64,000 bases of DNA from Deltaproteobacteria bacterium (lineage in GTDB: Bacteria > Myxococcota_A > Polyangia > Polyangiales > Ga0077539), in NCBI GenBank assembly GCA_947477565.1, contig CANJUR010000004.1:62001-126000 (forward strand), read 5' to 3'. The notes beneath the pieces were generated by a model that was given only the letters and a program-made list of their open reading frames with translations, searched no databases and was not told where the DNA came from. Numbering within the stretch: the stretch's first letter is position 1; every line of letters begins with the position of its first letter. This document shows, piece by piece, positions 5,716-35,991 of the stretch. A program made the position numbers and the translations under genes.

Positions 5716-7307
5716 TCGAGCGCGCGCCTCGCACTCCCCGCGGTCTCTTCGCGGCCTCGCTCGCGCTGATCACCCTCGGCTCGCTCGCACTGCGGGTGCC
5801 GCGCCTTGCGAGCATTCCCAACGCGGCCCACGACGAGGGCAACTGGCTCCTCGCCGCATGGCAGCGCGCCCACGGTGTCGCGGTGCCGCTAAGCCCCGAC
5901 GCGCGCTTCGTGACCGACCTCTTCGCCTGGCTGATGGCGTTCGCGCTGCGCCTCGGCGGCCAGTCCATCATCAGCGCACGCGCCGTTCCGGTCGCCGCTA
6001 GCTTCGTCGGGCTGGTGGCCATCGCGCTGATCGCCCGCCGGGTCGCCGGTCCGGGCGCAGCGCTCGTGCTCGCGGCCCTGCTCGCGGTGCACCCGTGGGC
6101 GATCCTCTGGAGCCGCAACGTCGTCACGCCTTACGCTCTCTCGCTCGTCCTCGCGGTCTTCGCACCGCTGCTCGCGCACCTCGCCTGGAACCTCCCCTCC
6201 CCCCGCTCCGCCTGGTGGCGGCTCGCATGCGGTCAATGCATCGCGCTGGGATTCCAGTTCTCCCCGCTCGCGCTCGTGTCGGCGATCGGGGTCGCTGTGC
6301 AGCTCCTCAACGACCCGATCTCCCGCGCGCAACTCCGGACGCGCTCCACCATCACCGCGGTTCTCCTCGCGGCCGCACACGTCGCGCCCATCGCCGTCGG
6401 CGCGGCGCGCGTGGCCCAGCACGGGAGCACCCGTCCCAGCGCCCACTTCGACCACCTCGGAATACGACTCCAGGTATTCGTTCGCGCGCTCGCGGGCGTT
6501 CTTTCCGGCGAAGCCACGCTCCGGGACTTCACCACCGCTACGCTCCCGTGGCCCCTCGAGTTCGCCGCGGCGTCGGTCGCAATCGCCGTCGTCGCCGTTG
6601 CCCTCGCCCGCGGCTGTGATCCGCTGCGTCGCCTCGCGATTCCCCACCTTGCGGCGGCGCTCGTCGGCCTGCCGTTGCTGCTAGCGCCGATGCGCCAGTG
6701 GCACATGCCCTCCGTGGATGCCGAGCGCTACGGATTTGTGCTGATCGCGCCCGCAGCGCTGCTCGTCGCATCGCTCGCTGGTTCGCGACTGCGATGGGTC
6801 GCCGTCGCCGCGGTGGCCGCCCTGGCGCTGGGCCCCACGCGGCGCGGCGCGGAGTGGTTTTGTCGCGGTGGCGGGCCCGACCGTGGACTATTTTTGACGC
6901 GCGATGGGGCCGGGGGCCGTCGCTGGAAGGTCACCGCGCACGACATCGCCGTGGTGGACCAGATCATCGCAACGGCGGACACCCTCGGTGTCGGCGCACG
7001 GGTCACGGTGGTGACGGCGGACTACGTCTTCCACCCGATCTACTTCGCCAACATCGGCCACGGGCACCGCCTCATCGAGATCAACGGGACGCCCCTCCCG
7101 TTGCGCTCGGGCGAGCGGTTGCTTTTCGTCCGTTGGTCCGACGGGGTGTTCGCGCCCACGTTCTGGCCTCGCGCTGACGTGATCGCCAACGATGCGCTCA
7201 CCGCACGGATGCACGCGCCCGACCTCCGCGACCTGCGCCTCGCGCGCACGCTGCGGCAGCCCGACGGCGAGGCGCTAATCGACCTCTGGACGGCGCAGGC
7301 TCCGTAG
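5712..7307 (+). CDS. GT-C fold polytopic membrane glycosyltransferase (ArnT/PMT-like)
   Basis: 531 aa with about ten hydrophobic helices. After the first helix comes an acidic Asp-Glu pair (D41-E42 in NAAHDEGNW), where GT-C enzymes place their catalytic Asp/Glu in the first extracytoplasmic loop. The last ~110 residues form a soluble periplasmic domain. Such enzymes move a sugar from a lipid-phosphate carrier to lipid A, protein or glycan at the outer face of the inner membrane. The exact substrate cannot be read from the sequence. It starts with GTG inside the preceding gene's stop. An ATG is not available near this point, and the TM1 region would be lost with later starts. Confidence 0.78.
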   Translation: MIERAPRTPRGLFAASLALITLGSLALRVPRLASIPNAAHDEGNWLLAAWQRAHGVAVPLSPDARFVTDLFAWLMAFALRLGGQSIISARAVPVAASFVGLVAIALIARRVAGPGAALVLAALLAVHPWAILWSRNVVTPYALSLVLAVFAPLLAHLAWNLPSPRSAWWRLACGQCIALGFQFSPLALVSAIGVAVQLLNDPISRAQLRTRSTITAVLLAAAHVAPIAVGAARVAQHGSTRPSAHFDHLGIRLQVFVRALAGVLSGEATLRDFTTATLPWPLEFAAASVAIAVVAVALARGCDPLRRLAIPHLAAALVGLPLLLAPMRQWHMPSVDAERYGFVLIAPAALLVASLAGSRLRWVAVAAVAALALGPTRRGAEWFCRGGGPDRGLFLTRDGAGGRRWKVTAHDIAVVDQIIATADTLGVGARVTVVTADYVFHPIYFANIGHGHRLIEINGTPLPLRSGERLLFVRWSDGVFAPTFWPRADVIANDALTARMHAPDLRDLRLARTLRQPDGEALIDLWTAQAP

Positions 7308-7361
7308 CGCGCCGCGGATGCATCGACGGACGTGCGCGACCGGTGCGAGACTCCGCGTCCG

Positions 7362-8585
7362 ATGAGCGAACCGATGTCCCCGTACCTCCGCCGCCTGCTG
7401 GTATTCCTGAGCGTTGCGACGTTTTTTGAGGGTTACGACATGTTCGCGCTCGCGCAGATCCTCCCCAACTTGCGCGCGGACTTCCACATCACCCCACAGG
7501 CTGCGGGGATCCTCCTCGCCTGCATCAACTTCGGCACCGTCGTGGCTTATTTGCTCATCCGCGTGGCCGATCGCATCGGGCGCAAGCGGGTGCTCTCGAT
7601 CACCATCGTCGGCTACACGCTGGCGTCGCTCGCCTCCGCGGCTTCTCCCAACGTCGTGGTCTTCGGCCTTCTCCAGTGCCTCGCCCGCGTCTTTCTCATC
7701 GGCGAATGGACCATCGCCATGGTGATGGCCGCCGAGGAGTACCCTGCGGCTCGTCGCGGCACGGTCATCGGCATTCTTCAGGCGTGTTCGTCTCTCGGTG
7801 GCATCGCGTGCGCGGGGCTGGTTCCGCTCATGCTGAAGAGCCCCATCGGGTGGCGACTGGTGTTCGTCGTCGGGTCCGTGCCGCTGGCGATCATGGCGTA
7901 CGCGCGCCGAGGCTTGAGGGAAACGCGCCGCTTCGAGGAAGCCACCGCGCAGGGAAACACCATCCCTCAGGGCAGCCTGTTTGCGGTGCTGCGCACGCGT
8001 CACCTCAAGCGCATCCTGCAGATGGCCGTGATCTGGTTTCTCTCCTACGTGTGCACTCAAAACGCGATCACGTTCTGGAAGGAGTTCGCCGTCGGCGAGC
8101 GGCAATTTACCGACGCTGAAGTGGGCGGTGCGATCACCGTCGCGGCCATCGCTTCGATGCCGCTGGTCTTCCTCGCGGGTCGCCTGCTCGACGCGATCGG
8201 CCGACGCCGCGGCTCGATCATCATCTACGGCGCGCTCTCCCTCGGGGTGTTCACCGCGTACACGCTCCACAGTCGCGCGGCGCTGACCGCGGCGCTGGCG
8301 CTCGCGGTATTCGGGACGAGCGCATTTCTCCCGGTGCTCAACGCCTTCACGACGGAGCTTTTCCCGACGGAGTACCGGGCCGACGCATTCGCGTGGTCCA
8401 ACAACCTCCTCGGGCGCATCGGGTATGTGCTGTCTCCGCCGCTCGTGGGGTACTTCGCGGCCCGCCACGGATGGGGCCCTACGGTGGGTGCGACGGCGGT
8501 GTTTCCGCTACTCGCGCTTGGGTTGATCCTGGCGCTTCTGCCCGAGACGGGCGGGCGCGAACTGGAAGAAACCGCGGGGATGTAA
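7362..8585 (+). CDS. Major facilitator superfamily transporter
   Basis: 407 aa, 12 predicted helices. The N-terminal FFEGYDMFALAQILPNL signature and the loop 2-3 motif RVADRIGRKRVL (D..GRK type) are typical of MFS proton symporters, closest in pattern to the aromatic-acid/metabolite:H+ symporter group. A second copy of the loop motif (GRLLDAIGRRRGS) is at ~270, and LFPTEYRADAFAWSNNLLGR in helix 10-11 fits too. The substrate is not assignable. ATG 7362 is chosen (MSEPMSPYL); GTG 7332 and ATG 7374 are alternatives. There is a 54-bp gap to the glycosyltransferase gene. Confidence 0.85.
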   Translation: MSEPMSPYLRRLLVFLSVATFFEGYDMFALAQILPNLRADFHITPQAAGILLACINFGTVVAYLLIRVADRIGRKRVLSITIVGYTLASLASAASPNVVVFGLLQCLARVFLIGEWTIAMVMAAEEYPAARRGTVIGILQACSSLGGIACAGLVPLMLKSPIGWRLVFVVGSVPLAIMAYARRGLRETRRFEEATAQGNTIPQGSLFAVLRTRHLKRILQMAVIWFLSYVCTQNAITFWKEFAVGERQFTDAEVGGAITVAAIASMPLVFLAGRLLDAIGRRRGSIIIYGALSLGVFTAYTLHSRAALTAALALAVFGTSAFLPVLNAFTTELFPTEYRADAFAWSNNLLGRIGYVLSPPLVGYFAARHGWGPTVGATAVFPLLALGLILALLPETGGRELEETAGM

Positions 8586-30018: not shown

Positions 30019-30183
30019 GCGTCTCGCGGGGTGCCCTGGCTGTCCTTGATGTTCGTTCGTCGGATCAGCACGGCCTCGCCAACGAGACGATGGCCCTATA
30101 TCCGCCTCTCGGCCCGCGAGGCGAACACGCGACCCCAGATCAGCGCTGGCAACGAGACGATCATGTGGGCTAGTGTACGAGCC

Positions 30184-30284
30184 GGAAGCACGACCTGATC
30201 TGGTGACGGGCCCAGTCTTCAAAACTGGTGGCGACGGTGCCTTTCGCATCGCGCGGGAGGTTCGATTCCTCTGTGCTTCCGCCA
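30184..30284 (+). tRNA. selC: Selenocysteine tRNA (anticodon TCA), 3' CCA encoded
   Basis: The 8-bp acceptor stem GGAAGCAC pairs with GTGCTTCC (30273-30280). The anticodon arm is CCAGT-CTTCAAA-ACTGG (30212-30228), with TCA at 30219-30221, complementary to UGA. A long variable arm (GCGA/TCGC) follows. The T arm GGAGG-TTCGATT-CCTCT leads to the discriminator G30281 and an encoded CCA at 30282-30284. Total 98 nt plus CCA, the long form specific to tRNA-Sec. Thus the organism should make selenoproteins; selA/B/D are not in the window. A decayed integrase follows immediately. Confidence 0.95.
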
Positions 30285-30938
30285 GAAATGGATTTTTTCA
30301 CAGCGTTTGCGGCGAAGATGGCGCTGCGCGTCAGGGGATCGTCCGGGTTATTCACGGGGGAGGACGGAGGCGGCTCCGTGCCGGTCGGTGGCTCCGTCGG
30401 GTCGGCGGCGGTGGGGAGCACGATCTGGAGCTTGCGGAGTTCGCGGCACAGGCTCGTCCACTGCTGGCGTGAGTATCCGTCGTACGCGGTTCTCGGCGGA
30501 GCGTGCGTGATCCAACGGAGCACCGTTCCGCCGCCGCCGTCCTCTTGGGTCAGCGTGATGAACGTGTGCCGCGCGCAGTTCCGATGGCGGTCACGGACGC
30601 CCGCGACCTTGCAGTCGGTGTGAAACGCTCGCGTGGCCGTGCTTCCATTGAGCTCCGAACCCTTCCGTCGTCCCCGGAACGCTGGTGTCACGAGGTCGCG
30701 GTCGGTCGTTGAGCGCCCGGTGACTCCGCCCAGCCACGCTGCTGCCAGTCGGTGAGGAGCCGTTCCTGGACTGGGTGGATTGGCACCTGCTTGACGGCTT
30801 GCGTCTTCGTCGGCACGCCACCGCCGGAGACCACCTCCCCGCCCCCGAGATCGTGATGCGAGTGAGCGCACGGACCGTGCGATCCAAGTCGGCGAATCGT
30901 ACGGCTCCGATCTCTCGAGGTCGCATTCCGGTTGTCAC
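30285..30938 (-). pseudogene. Decayed tyrosine-recombinase (integrase) next to the tRNA-Sec 3' end
   Basis: Read toward the tRNA, pieces of an integrase catalytic domain appear in three frames: TTGMRPREIGAVRFADLD (box I Arg), then PTKTQAVKQVPIHP...RLLTDWQQRGW in another, then DLVTPAFRGRRKGSELNG, RHTFITLTQE, ITH and YDGYSRQQWTSLC in a third. At least two frameshifts break the gene, and the first His of HxxR appears replaced, so it cannot be active. The frame of the last piece continues through the tRNA on the opposite strand. Integrases facing a tRNA 3' end mark integrative elements. The likely attachment core is the tRNA 3' sequence, but I found no second copy in the window. Confidence 0.8.
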
Positions 30939-31239
30939 CGAGCGAGTGAGTTGAGGCTTTGCGGTTGTCTTTCGCGCCGAATCCTTGATGGCAGTTGGGT
31001 TGCCACCGCGACGATGGCCCTCATCGGATTGCCCGTGCGCTCGCCGGTGGTCGCGCGCCAGGAGCGGAGCCGCGACGCCATGTCGGCGATTGCAATAAGT
31101 GACGGGATCGGTGCGCCAACACCCTCCTGTCGGACCCGATGATGTCCTGGGAGAAAGTCATCGAGACCCACCACGAGTCGTCCGCTTCGCGCTCTCCGTC
31201 AGGGACTGGATCGCCGATACCCCGAACGTCCTCGATGCC

Positions 31240-31759
31240 CGACCGCCCATCCCCCCGTGCTGTCACTTCGCCAGCTCCCTGCCCGGTGGCCGCCTCGTGC
31301 TCCATGGTCACGGGTGCCGTACTCGCACCGTTCGCGGGATCCTCACGAACGACGAAACCCCAACCCTCCAAGAACTCCTTGCGCGCCGCTACCTCTTCGC
31401 TACGTGTGGCGTGACCTCCACCGTCGTGCCCGCCGATGTGCTCCCGCGCAAGCACTTCGGCGTCGTCACCATCGCCCGCGCATTCGCCGTCGACGGCGCG
31501 ATCCGGCAGTCGCTCGACGCAGTCTACCGATCGCTCAATCCCGCGCGTGTCCGCGGCTTAAGGTGCGCGCGGCTGGTGCTCGATGCTCCGCTGGCTCTCC
31601 GTCGCCCCGACGTTCTTCCCCAACGTGCACCCGTCGCCCTCCGAGTGCTCCTCGCGCCGCTTCGCAGAGCGCACTGCCATGACCCTCGCGGCCCTCGTCG
31701 CCGACGAGTCGCTCCAGATTCCAGTGCGCGTCGTCCGCGCCGTCTGCCACCCGCCTTGA
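31240..31759 (+). pseudogene. Degenerate transposon-associated zinc-ribbon protein (DUF6431-like)
   Basis: The frame from ~31246 reads CCHFASS, GGRLVLHGHGCRTRTVRGIL, CGVTSTVVPADVLPRKHFG and VTIARAFAV, then shifts near 31570 to a frame reading RWCSMLRWLSVAPTFFPNVH and AERTAMTLAAL, ending with TGA at 31757-31759. This is the pattern of a protein encoded before IS481-like transposases in myxobacteria: a Cys-based N-terminal ribbon, VxPxxVLPRxxF, then a W..LRRW helix. The frame break, missing residues and absence of a clear start show that it is broken. A truncated transposase start follows at 31884. Confidence 0.6.
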
Positions 31760-31883
31760 TGCCCATCGCCTTGTTTTAGACAGGGAATCGCAGCTCCTCC
31801 GGTTGGGCCGACTCCCACGCGCGGCACACACCGATACCGCTCATCCCGAATCGCCCACCAAAGCCCGGGCTCAGGAGACCTCC

Positions 31884-32015
31884 ATGCCTGACGATGACCA
31901 CGAGATTACTCCCCGCCATCACGGCGAAGAGACCGCCCTCTTCCGCCTCGGCGTCATCGACGCTCTCACCCGACGCACGCTCGAGGCGAGCCAGCGAGCG
32001 CCTCCAGCGCGGTGA
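31884..32015 (+). pseudogene. Truncated IS481-like transposase N-terminus
   Basis: From ATG 31884: an acidic start then HHGEETALFRLGVIDALTRR, the helical N-terminus typical of IS481/integrase-core transposases. After ~35 residues the similarity stops at about 31999, exactly where the 120-bp repeat A begins, and the frame closes at 32015. The rest of the transposase is absent. The break shows that the repeat and the lipoprotein gene behind it were placed into, or replaced, the transposase. Confidence 0.6.
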
Positions 32016-32120
32016 ACGGGTGCTCTCGACGGCGCGCAGCGGGGGGAGCTTCGCATATAGATGTGATCAGGTACCTGGAGCGAATCCGTGCCAGCGGGCG
32101 TGCCGCGTTGGATCGCTTAT
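32001..32120 (+). repeat. Repeat A, 120 bp, upstream of the RCC1 lipoprotein gene
   Basis: Nearly identical to repeat B at 35872-35991. Perfect blocks are the first ~33 bases (starting CCTCCAGCGCGGTGAACGGG), ~29 bases around GATCAGGTACCTGGAGCG, and TTGGATCGCTTAT at the end, with mismatches and 1-base indels between. The 3' edge is 67 bp before the ATG of the lipoprotein gene. It likely holds the promoter. Confidence 0.9.
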
Positions 32121-32187: not shown

Positions 32188-35100
32188 ATGAGTCGAACAA
32201 GAGCCTTTTCCGCGGTGCTGACCGCGGCGCTGCTGGCTGCGTGCAGCAGCAACTCCTCGGTGGTCGGTGGTGACGACGTCGGCAACCTCGGCGCCGACGC
32301 CTCGGCCGACGCAGGCTTCGACGCAGGCTTCGACGCAGGCTTCGACGCAGGCTTCGACGCAGGCTTCGACGCGGCGCCCGACGTCCCCGCCGACGTCGGC
32401 CGCGCGGGCTGTCGCGACAACATCGACTGCGCGGGCGACGAGCTCGGCAACCGCGTGTGCGACGTCGCGGAGGCGCGCTGCGTGGCCTGCACGGCGACCA
32501 ACCGCGGCTCGTGCGGAGGCAGGCAGTTCTGCACCGCCGCGAACCGCTGCGAAGCGGGCTGTAGCGCCGATGGCGACTGCGCCGGCGGCGGCGACGCGGG
32601 TGCCCCGGCCGACGGCGCGGCCACGGCCGGGTTGCGCTGCGACACCGCGCGGCACGCCTGCGTGGCTTGCGTGAGTGACGACCACTGCTCGGTGGGCCAG
32701 GTCTGCCAGTCGGGCGCCTGCGTCGCGGGCTGCAACGAGCGCCGCGGCTGCCCGACGGGCCAGGCCTGCTGCGGCTCGACCTGCGCCAATGTGCAGGACG
32801 ACGCGCTCCGCTGCGGCACCTGCACGACTGTCTGTGCCGGGGGCAACAACGCCGCCCCCGCGTGCTCAATGGGCGCGTGCACCCGCCGCTGCCTGCCCGG
32901 CTTCGCCGACTGCGACGGCGACACCACAAACGGCTGCGAGGTCTCGCTCGAGGGCTCGGCCAACTGCGGCGCGTGCGGCCGCACCTGCACCGGCGCGACG
33001 CCCCTCTGCTCGACCACCGCGGGCGCCTCGCGCTGCGTCTCGGGCTGCGATGCGATGCAGACCCGCTGCGGCTCGGTCTGCGCCGACACCCAGAACGACG
33101 CCACCGACTGCGGCCGCTGCGGCAACGTGTGCCCCGGCGGCGCCAACGCGACCGGGTCGTGCGCGGCCGGCGCCTGCCGCCTCGCCTGCAACGCCGGCTT
33201 CGCCGACTGCGAAGGCGACGCCACCAACGGCTGCGAGGCCAACCTCAACACCGGCGTCGGCAGCTGCGGCGCCTGCGGCACGGTCTGCCCCTCCGGGGGC
33301 AACAGCACCTCCTCCTGCGCGGCCGGGCGCTGCCGCCTCGCCTGCAACGCAGGCTTCGCCGACTGCGACGCCAACGCCGTCAACGGCTGCGAGGTCAACG
33401 TGCTCACCTCGTCGGGCAGCTGCGGCGCCTGCAGGCGCACCTGCCCCGGCGGCGCCAACGGCTCGGCCACATGCAGCAACGGAACCTGCCAGGTCGCCTG
33501 CAACCCCGGCTTCGGCGACTGCGACGGCGACGCGTCCAACGGCTGCGAGCAGTCCCTCGACAACGCCACCCACTGCGGCCGCTGCGCCAACGGCTGCGCC
33601 GGCGCGACGCCGGTGTGCGCCGCCGCTATGGGCGCGAGCGCGACTTGCACCAGCGGCTGCGCCTCCGGGCAGCAGCGCTGCGGCAGCTCGTGCTTCGACC
33701 CGCAGACTGACCCCGATCACTGCGGCGACTGCACGACGGTCTGCCGCACGACGCCGAACACCCGCGCGACCTGCGCGGTCGGCCGCTGCGGCACCGCCTG
33801 CGCGCCGGGCTTCTCCGACTGCGACGGCGACGCGGCCAACGGCTGCGAGGTCAACACCCAGGTGAGTACGACCCATTGCGGCGCGTGCAACAACACCTGC
33901 CGCACCGGGCAGAACTCCACCGTGGCCTGCGTGTCGAGTCAGTGCCGCGCGACCTGCAACGTCGGCTACGGCGACTGCGACACGCTCGAGCTCAACGGCT
34001 GCGAGGCCAACCTGCTCACCGCCACCGCACACTGCGGCGGCTGCGGGCGCCTGTGCCCCCCCGCGGCCAACGCGGTGCCGACGTGCACTGACGGGGGCTG
34101 CGCGTTCCGCTGCGTGACGGGCTTCGCCGACTGCGACGGCAACGCAGCCAACGGCTGCGAGACCGCCCTCGACGGCGCCACCAACTGCGGCGGCTGCGGC
34201 CGCGTCTGCGGCTCGGCCACGCCGCTCTGCTCCACCGCGGGTGCGACGCCGACGTGCATCTCCGGCTGCGACGCCACGCAGGTGCGCTGCGGCAGCAGCT
34301 GCGTCGACCTGCAGAGCGACCCGACCCACTGCGGCGCCTGCTCGGCCGCGTGCTCCACCGGGCCCAACGCCACCCGCACCTGCACCACCGGGCGCTGCGG
34401 CATCACCTGCGCGTCGGGCTTCGGCGACTGCGACAACGCGCCCTCCAACGGCTGCGAGGTGGCATTCGCCGCCGACAACGCCAACTGCGGCGGCTGCGGC
34501 CGTGCGTGCCCCTCGACGCAGACCTGCACCGCGGGCGCCTGCCGCGACCGCTGCGCCGCCGGCCTCACCTTTTGCAGTGGCGTCTGCGTCAACGGGCAGA
34601 ACGACAACGACAACTGCGGCGCCTGCGGCAACTCCTGCGGCACGGGGCGCTACTGCCTCGCGGGAACCTGCCGCACGGGCAACGTCTCGACGGTGACGTC
34701 GGGCAACGACCATGTCTGCGCGATCCGCGGCTCCGGCACCGTCTGGTGCTGGGGCTACAACGGCTGGGGCCAGCTGGGCAACGGCAACACCACCAGCAGC
34801 CTCGTGCTTCAGCAAGTGCCGCGGATCACCAACGCGGTGGAGGTCGGCGCCTCGAGCGGGAGTTCCTTCGCGCGCCTGGCCGACGGCACGGTCGTCGGGT
34901 GGGGCTTGCACTACGGCGCCGGCGAGCTCGGCGACGGCAGCACGGTCCCGCAGCGCACCTCGCCGGTATCGGTGGTGGGCCTGACCAACATCGTCGACAT
35001 CTCCACCGGCGGCTGGGCGCACAGCTGCGCGGTCGACGCCTCGGGCCGCGCCTGGTGCTGGGGCTGGAACAACTACGCCCAGCTCGGCGACGGCAGCACG

Positions 35101-35781: not shown

Positions 35782-35871
35782 ACTCTCGTATTCCCCCGCC
35801 TCCCCGCTGAGATGGGCGCTCCAGGCGCTCGCCTCCCGCCCTCCGCCTCGATTACCATCCGCAAGCGATCA

Positions 35872-35991
35872 CCTCCAGCGCGGTGAACGGGTGCTCTCGA
35901 CGGCTCGAACAGGGTGATCTTCGCACATAGAGATGATCAGGTACCTGGAGCGAATCCGTGCCAAAACGGTAAGGGGTGTTGGATCGCTTAT
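35872..35991 (+). repeat. Repeat B, 120 bp, upstream of the Gly-rich lipoprotein gene
   Basis: Second copy of the 32001-32120 repeat, starting 90 bp after the RCC1 lipoprotein stop and ending 28 bp before ATG 36020. Sharing of an upstream region by two different lipoprotein genes suggests a copied promoter or a copied insertion site. Confidence 0.9.

Follow-up and report, generated by a model that had tools for sequence, protein, structure and literature searches.

The window, the whole 64,000-nucleotide stretch of a Deltaproteobacteria bacterium genome analyzed here, in all likelihood (probability about 0.8) retains the attL end of a prophage or island of the Mx8 type, now dead, that had lodged in the 3′ end of the selenocysteine tRNA gene, selC, and whose integrase would have had its C-terminal tail exchanged upon integration. 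The original prediction had described a complete tRNA-Sec followed by an inverted, frameshifted tyrosine integrase; what it missed, and what is the more interesting point, is that the open frame of the integrase continues across the tRNA gene. The window's copy is itself broken and without an attR, the tail swap being seen in relatives only. The features are as follows.

30184 to 30284, plus strand: tRNA-Sec gene (selC), identified by ARAGORN with anticodon TCA, a long variable arm, and encoded CCA; RF01852; taken as the attL copy restored by integration
30250 to 30284, plus strand: putative att core, the last 35 nt of tRNA-Sec, by homology to the core of the selC element of genome G066
30170 to 30421, minus strand: C-terminal tail in the frame of the third integrase piece, antisense across the entire tRNA-Sec, with a stop just past the tRNA 5′ end
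30329 to 30352, minus strand: two putative decayed arm-type repeats, 12 nt apart, matching GATACCCTGGAG at 9/12 and 8/12 positions
30422 to 30724, minus strand: integrase remnant, third piece (tblastn frame −2); CARHTF, ITH, and YDGY, with Arg II, His, and Tyr
30703 to 30813, minus strand: integrase remnant, second piece (tblastn frame −3); TKT, with the catalytic Lys
30840 to 30938, minus strand: integrase remnant, first piece (tblastn frame −1); TGMRPREIG motif, with the catalytic Arg I

A genuine tRNA-Sec gene and selenocysteine decoding

The tRNA-Sec of the window is genuine. Its RF01852 match (positions 30184 to 30280), at 67.6 bits (E = 1.2e-11), clears the cut-off of 47 bits and is the sole Rfam gathering match of the whole window, just as the gene is the sole tRNA found there by ARAGORN; the complete tRNA-Sec with TCA anticodon and encoded CCA that had been proposed is borne out by both programs. 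The gene is single copy, with no second RF01852 match above the cut-off in the genome, where its 22-nt 3′ end also occurs only once with up to 2 mismatches allowed.

UGA recoding, which had been predicted from the tRNA, is very likely in this genome because SelA (405 bits), SelB (313.7 bits), and SelD (362.1 bits) are all encoded, each scoring above its curated cut-off, and because selD (G000:C8:131131-132072) has a single in-frame TGA in the context HGAG-U-ASKI. Read from the DNA, this gene begins M-S-G-E-D-Q-V-R-L-T-Q-L-A-H-G-A-G-UGA-A-S-K-I, placing the UGA at what we take to be the active-site Cys/Sec position of SelD. A stem-loop 3′ of this codon (z = −2.4) is at most a SECIS candidate, and a search of the genome for formate dehydrogenase (Fdh-alpha) as a second selenoprotein gave nothing above the cut-off. 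Given the Sec machinery and the UGA-containing selD, genes of this genome with an in-frame UGA need to be treated with care.

The integrase remnant at the 3′ end of selC

With intact relatives as queries, tblastn matched the minus strand at 30938-30840, 30813-30703, and 30724-30170; since these matches fall in three frames, the remnant is read as carrying two frameshifts. It is also truncated, with the N-terminal half absent and no tblastn match to the intact relatives upstream of 30938. All the catalytic motifs are kept, distributed over the three frames, and the catalytic R, K, R, H, and Y are invariant among 25 aligned relatives. The predicted inverted, frameshifted integrase is confirmed, and the window ORF that holds its last frame (30871-30170) spans the tRNA-Sec antisense.

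Pfam gave no integrase match with the broken remnant frames, and the intact relatives match PF00589. Against the phage collection, the remnant is 38.6% identical over 70 aa to the Int protein of Myxococcus phage Mx8 (E = 3e-7), and its matches at E 1e-5 are four Mx8 records, all of one phage; a first viral scan with a piece of the remnant had given no match, nor was the integrase matched in plasmids. By homology, the remnant is a frameshifted, truncated tyrosine recombinase of the Mx8 type.

The attR copy expected beyond the window did not materialize, as it was absent from the window, from the adjoining C4:126001-186000, and, with up to 2 mismatches, from the assembled genome as a whole. The window's element has probably been lost from the genome.

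Proposed exchange of the integrase tail

We propose that in the intact integrase gene the 3′ coding part would contain arm-type repeats and the attP core, followed by a phage-coded C-terminal tail. During integration the core would recombine with its exact counterpart at the 3′ end of a tRNA or tmRNA gene; this would restore the tRNA, and the integrase frame would lose its tail and enter the antisense tRNA (IntP to IntX in the Mx8 nomenclature). The phage-form integrase would insert the element, insertion would shorten and change the tail, and excision would restore it, lysogeny being stabilized by the tail loss until excision brings the tail back. In the genome studied here, the element would have been lost and the leftover integrase would have decayed. 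We infer that translation yields both forms of the integrase, that the tail has a role in recombination, and that its loss stabilizes lysogeny, the tail thereby serving as a lysogeny switch. For Mx8, published experiments support a lower activity of the integrated form. For elements with no recognizable tail module, the crossing may be accidental.

More tentatively, and at slightly less than even odds, the same arrangement could act as a hinge throughout a clade of myxobacterial phages: with att inside the integrase gene, a conserved module at the C terminus, either a helical hairpin or a zinc ribbon, would be joined by an attP-coded linker, integration would substitute an antisense-tRNA peptide as a reversible, low-activity record of the integrated state, and at selC this would entail antisense transcription of tRNA-Sec. 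If the Mx8 arrangement is a rule of the clade, with about a dozen tRNA and tmRNA targets including selC, the sensing of integration becomes testable through natural pairs of tails. There are consequences for annotation too: part of the C-terminal integrase sequence in these genomes is antisense tRNA, and the missing integrase ends may lie in the small hairpin ORFs at attR.

The integrase frame runs into tRNA and tmRNA genes

Integrases were drawn from 47 of 289 genomes class-wide, 27 of 377 genomes phylum-wide (E 1e-20), 52 loci on GTDB contigs, and two IMG/VR sets of 20 and 19 loci, from which 91 non-redundant rows reaching the end of the profile were kept. An antisense tRNA or tmRNA gene lay within 400 nt of the domain end in 45 of these, the window's integrase included (43 clusters at 85% identity). 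The targets were tmRNA (15), tRNA-Asp (9), tRNA-Glu (7), tRNA-Sec (5), tRNA-Leu (3), and one each of tRNA-Ser, -Lys, -Pro, -Val, -Gly, and -Ala. Locus L129, with a tRNA 759 nt distant, was left out of the set; this is a second Mx8-type integrase of the window's own genome (G000:C38:6495-7136), with a frame open for 472 aa and no tRNA at its 3′ end.

Of the 45 integrase frames, 43 were open as far as the tRNA 3′ end, compared with 19 and 16 for the other two frames; the integrase frames held 3 stops in 1,918 codons versus 94 in 3,798 for the other two. One exception (L145) stops 8 nt short; the other (L055) is the frameshifted selC copy of genome G483. Three further integrases outside the count (L276, L286, and L288) have frames that likewise enter a tRNA or tmRNA gene.

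Direct repeats were present between the domain end and the tRNA, with a period of 12 in 26/45 loci and of 11 in 10/45 (at least 8/9 positions matching; about 1 locus expected from codon shuffling). In the G066 selC element, there are two copies of GATACCCTGGAG between the integrase domain and the core, with one direct and one inverted copy past the core; such repeats are intact in G066 and other elements and decayed at the same spacing in the window. The Mx8 record likewise has repeats annotated around the core within intP. We infer that these coding-sequence repeats are arm-type integrase sites.

The strongest alternative is that the run-in is an accident without consequence, arising in G+C-rich, stop-poor genomes with a core that by coincidence directly follows the integrase gene. 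The tails antisense to the tRNA use all three frames, the other frames are often open as well (the 19/45 and 16/45 above), and several of the alternative frames in joined elements are long, all of which would fit such an accident. Against it, the frequency of stops in the integrase frame is about 16-fold below that of the other two, the period-12 repeats lie within the same stretch, and some tails past the core show conservation across elements that target different tRNAs. On balance we consider an accident unlikely, and favor the exchange of tails. A fixed frame or a conserved peptide for the antisense-tRNA tail was considered separately and is ruled out by the occurrence of all three frames.

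The 46 rows without such a tRNA were mixed, many of them with short tails (4 to 38 aa). An attP-like core lies within the frame in Mx8, L193, L163, L164, L165, L166, and L083, and in L203 and L168 the integrase frame ends ahead of a core-like stretch.

Two tails for one integrase

A second copy of the tRNA-Sec 3′ end was found for the G066 selC element on another contig (C69), the core common to attL and attR being 35 nt long and identical to the tRNA 3′ end. When the ends are joined, the integrase frame crosses the core and the arm repeats and continues for 91 residues; in the integrated form it passes into the antisense tRNA-Sec instead. Counted from the start of the core, the integrase frame of the joined element is 102 aa long and the other two are 29 and 20 aa. 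Eight more joined elements have 56 to 107 residues open past the core: G402 (Gly), G172 (Glu), G172 (tmRNA), G353 (Ala), G370 (Leu), G182 (Asp), G163 (tmRNA), and G276 (Asp). Nine relatives, with the G066 selC element among them, are thus predicted to encode a different tail in the excised form.

The attR searches succeeded for 2/6, 5/9, and 2/5 elements in three rounds, the last of which included G276, retried with a further stretch, and three more rows that held their own locus only; for several elements, the window's and the G533 selC element included, no attR was found. Where there were several core copies (G172-Glu, G370-Leu, and G182-Asp), the copy nearest the integrase was taken. In G172-Glu the frame joined to the two additional copies stops at once. 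The far end of the G172 tRNA-Glu element has three core-like copies at a 97-nt spacing (L254, positions 3378, 3475, and 3572). A G066 element at tRNA-Pro has an internal att junction whose tail is short; here (L082 and L083, G066:C7) the internal junction lies about 85 kb off, with a second integrase, and the arrangement is probably a tandem array.

Phage-coded tails

The tails encoded past the core do not form one family. A general likeness among them was rejected, and only subgroups appear related, because a search among the tails gave 6 directed pairs at E 0.01 or better versus 0 to 4 in 20 shuffles. One subgroup, the G370-Leu and G182-Asp tails, is marked by CxxC...CxxC in both members (E = 3e-5 in a set of 18 tails) and may be described as zinc-ribbon-like. 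Another has a helical segment, or hairpin, common to G402-Gly, G276-Asp, and L195, an unjoined IMG/VR integrase.

A profile of these three hairpins gave one further independent match in 39,093 ORF stretches, L072 of G301 (E = 1e-5), which has an Mx8-type integrase next to it and follows a core-like stretch. Extended to four rows, the profile matched 39 places in 32 of the 289 class genomes at E 0.01, with no match in the window's own family (f1). Inspection of 22 hairpin loci revealed a 17- to 21-nt match to a tRNA or tmRNA 3′ end at or before the segment in 6 and a same-strand tRNA or tmRNA gene nearby in 5, such that 11/22 were near a tRNA/tmRNA core or gene (9/19 without the three seed loci). 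The AlphaFold2 model of L195 (25 sequences) has a confident recombinase whose predicted fold matches the lambda and Tn1549 integrases, followed by a linker (residues 379 to 457) with pLDDT below 50 and then by predicted helices at 458 to 473 and 476 to 493 (pLDDT about 67 to 78).

The hairpin at attR could, in principle, terminate a small gene of its own, one for a directionality factor for instance, that is unfused in the phage form. Many of the hairpin ORFs are indeed short (49 to 124 aa) and some adjoin same-strand tRNA genes; the unjoined L195 contig, however, has the catalytic domain and the hairpin in a single ORF, and the G402 and G276 hairpins fall in the integrase frame once the ends are joined, which makes a separate gene rather improbable. 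A hairpin belonging to the integrase itself remains the preferred reading. The hairpin ORFs at L298, L300, L302, L304, and L312 adjoin same-strand tRNA or tmRNA genes, suggesting elements of opposite orientation with the same integrase split.

A second hairpin subtype (G066, L202, G353, G172-Glu, and L197) was dropped: it came from an alignment by eye to which the search statistics lent no support, the G066 selC tail, which resembles L202 and others by eye, giving E = 6.5. The G163 tail is helical as judged by eye alone, and no tail domain was recognizable in the G172 tmRNA element.

selC as an integration site in relatives

Of 377 genomes sampled across the phylum, 215 had a tRNA-Sec (E 1e-9), as did 12 of the 13 genomes of the window's own family. 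Five of the 12 family loci have an Mx8-type integrase or remnant within 1.5 kb of the selC 3′ end, frameshifted in the window's genome (G000) and in G483 and open in G561, G533, and G066; no Mx8-type integrase was present near the selC 3′ end at the 30 other phylum loci examined of the 215. The comparison of selC flanks suggested by the original prediction therefore gave the same integrase type at the tRNA-Sec 3′ end in four same-family relatives, which argues that the remnant at selC is not there by chance. With matching attL and attR in one selC element of the family (G066), the use of selC as an integration site in this family of Myxococcota, also foreseen, is supported by the comparative data. 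That the remnant is instead a fragment brought to selC by a rearrangement, as its truncation and frameshifts and the lack of attR in the assembly might intimate, is highly improbable given that the integrases at selC in G561, G533, and G066 agree with it in type, orientation, and distance, that G066 has a matched attR, and that the decayed arm repeats keep the same spacing.

The attR of the G533 selC element was not found in its own contig; another contig (G533:C143) has a copy of the tRNA-Sec 3′ end with 2 mismatches.

In enterobacteria, selC is an integration site of islands. The parallel that had been drawn with these islands holds for the target gene and probably goes no further, the integrase being of the Mx8 type; in the phage collection the remnant matched nothing but Mx8 records at E 1e-5. 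An IMG/VR contig (L332, IMGVR_UViG_3300042549_010402, positions 6720 to 7993) has a tRNA-Sec 3′ fragment beside a tyrosine integrase of a different type, which indicates that selC is targeted by at least two integrase types. This one does not cross the core, its ORF (6720-7967) ending 4 nt ahead of the core match at 7972.

Comparison with known systems

Integration of SSV-type elements splits the integrase gene into two fragments, whereas here the catalytic domain stays whole and the tail alone changes, a distinction drawn by description. The likeness is that the gene reaches across attP, as noted for both the Mx8 and the SSV archaeal virus integrases by the authors of Islander (PMC4383910). 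According to published accounts of Mx8, attP lies within int and integration gives the gene a new 3′ end (PMC6070905); 13 residues replace a 112-residue tail, and the modified integrase is less active (PMC4701971). The Mx8 record itself has a misc_recomb feature at 2387-2415, inside intP (1154-2755), and the int ORF contains 28 nt of a tRNA-Asp 3′ end.

Mx8 Int has a related catalytic domain (39.9% identity over 207 aa to the G533 selC integrase), and in both systems attP would lie inside the int coding sequence and integration would change the tail. Unlike Mx8, which has a tRNA-Asp core, the window's element used selC and is dead; the tail sequences also differ, Mx8 being undetected by the hairpin model. 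Elements with att inside their own integrase gene have been called very few in number (PMC4701971), whereas the arrangement here appears clade-wide. The same text describes serine integrases of streptococcal ICEs at the rumA site, which similarly have att within the integrase gene and a different C terminus when excised (PMC4701971); these are serine recombinases with a protein-coding target and an unrelated catalytic mechanism. No clade-wide description of Mx8-type crossing integrases was found in the literature searched. The Mx8 principle is already known; its spread across the clade, the targeting of selC, and tail modules conserved past the core appear to be new.

Other features of the window

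An ORF at 31099-31776, between the remnant and the next intact gene, has a sub-threshold match to DUF6431 (E = 0.098) and is possibly another decayed mobile element. Two stretches of about 100 nt (31990-32093 and 35861-35963) are near-identical (87 to 90%) and lie upstream of two genes for cysteine-rich repeat proteins, a likeness that might reflect the copying of a regulatory or start region. A 12-nt tandem repeat, GGCTTCGACGCA, at 32290-32373 encodes a run of GFDA repeats close to the beginning of a predicted lipoprotein.
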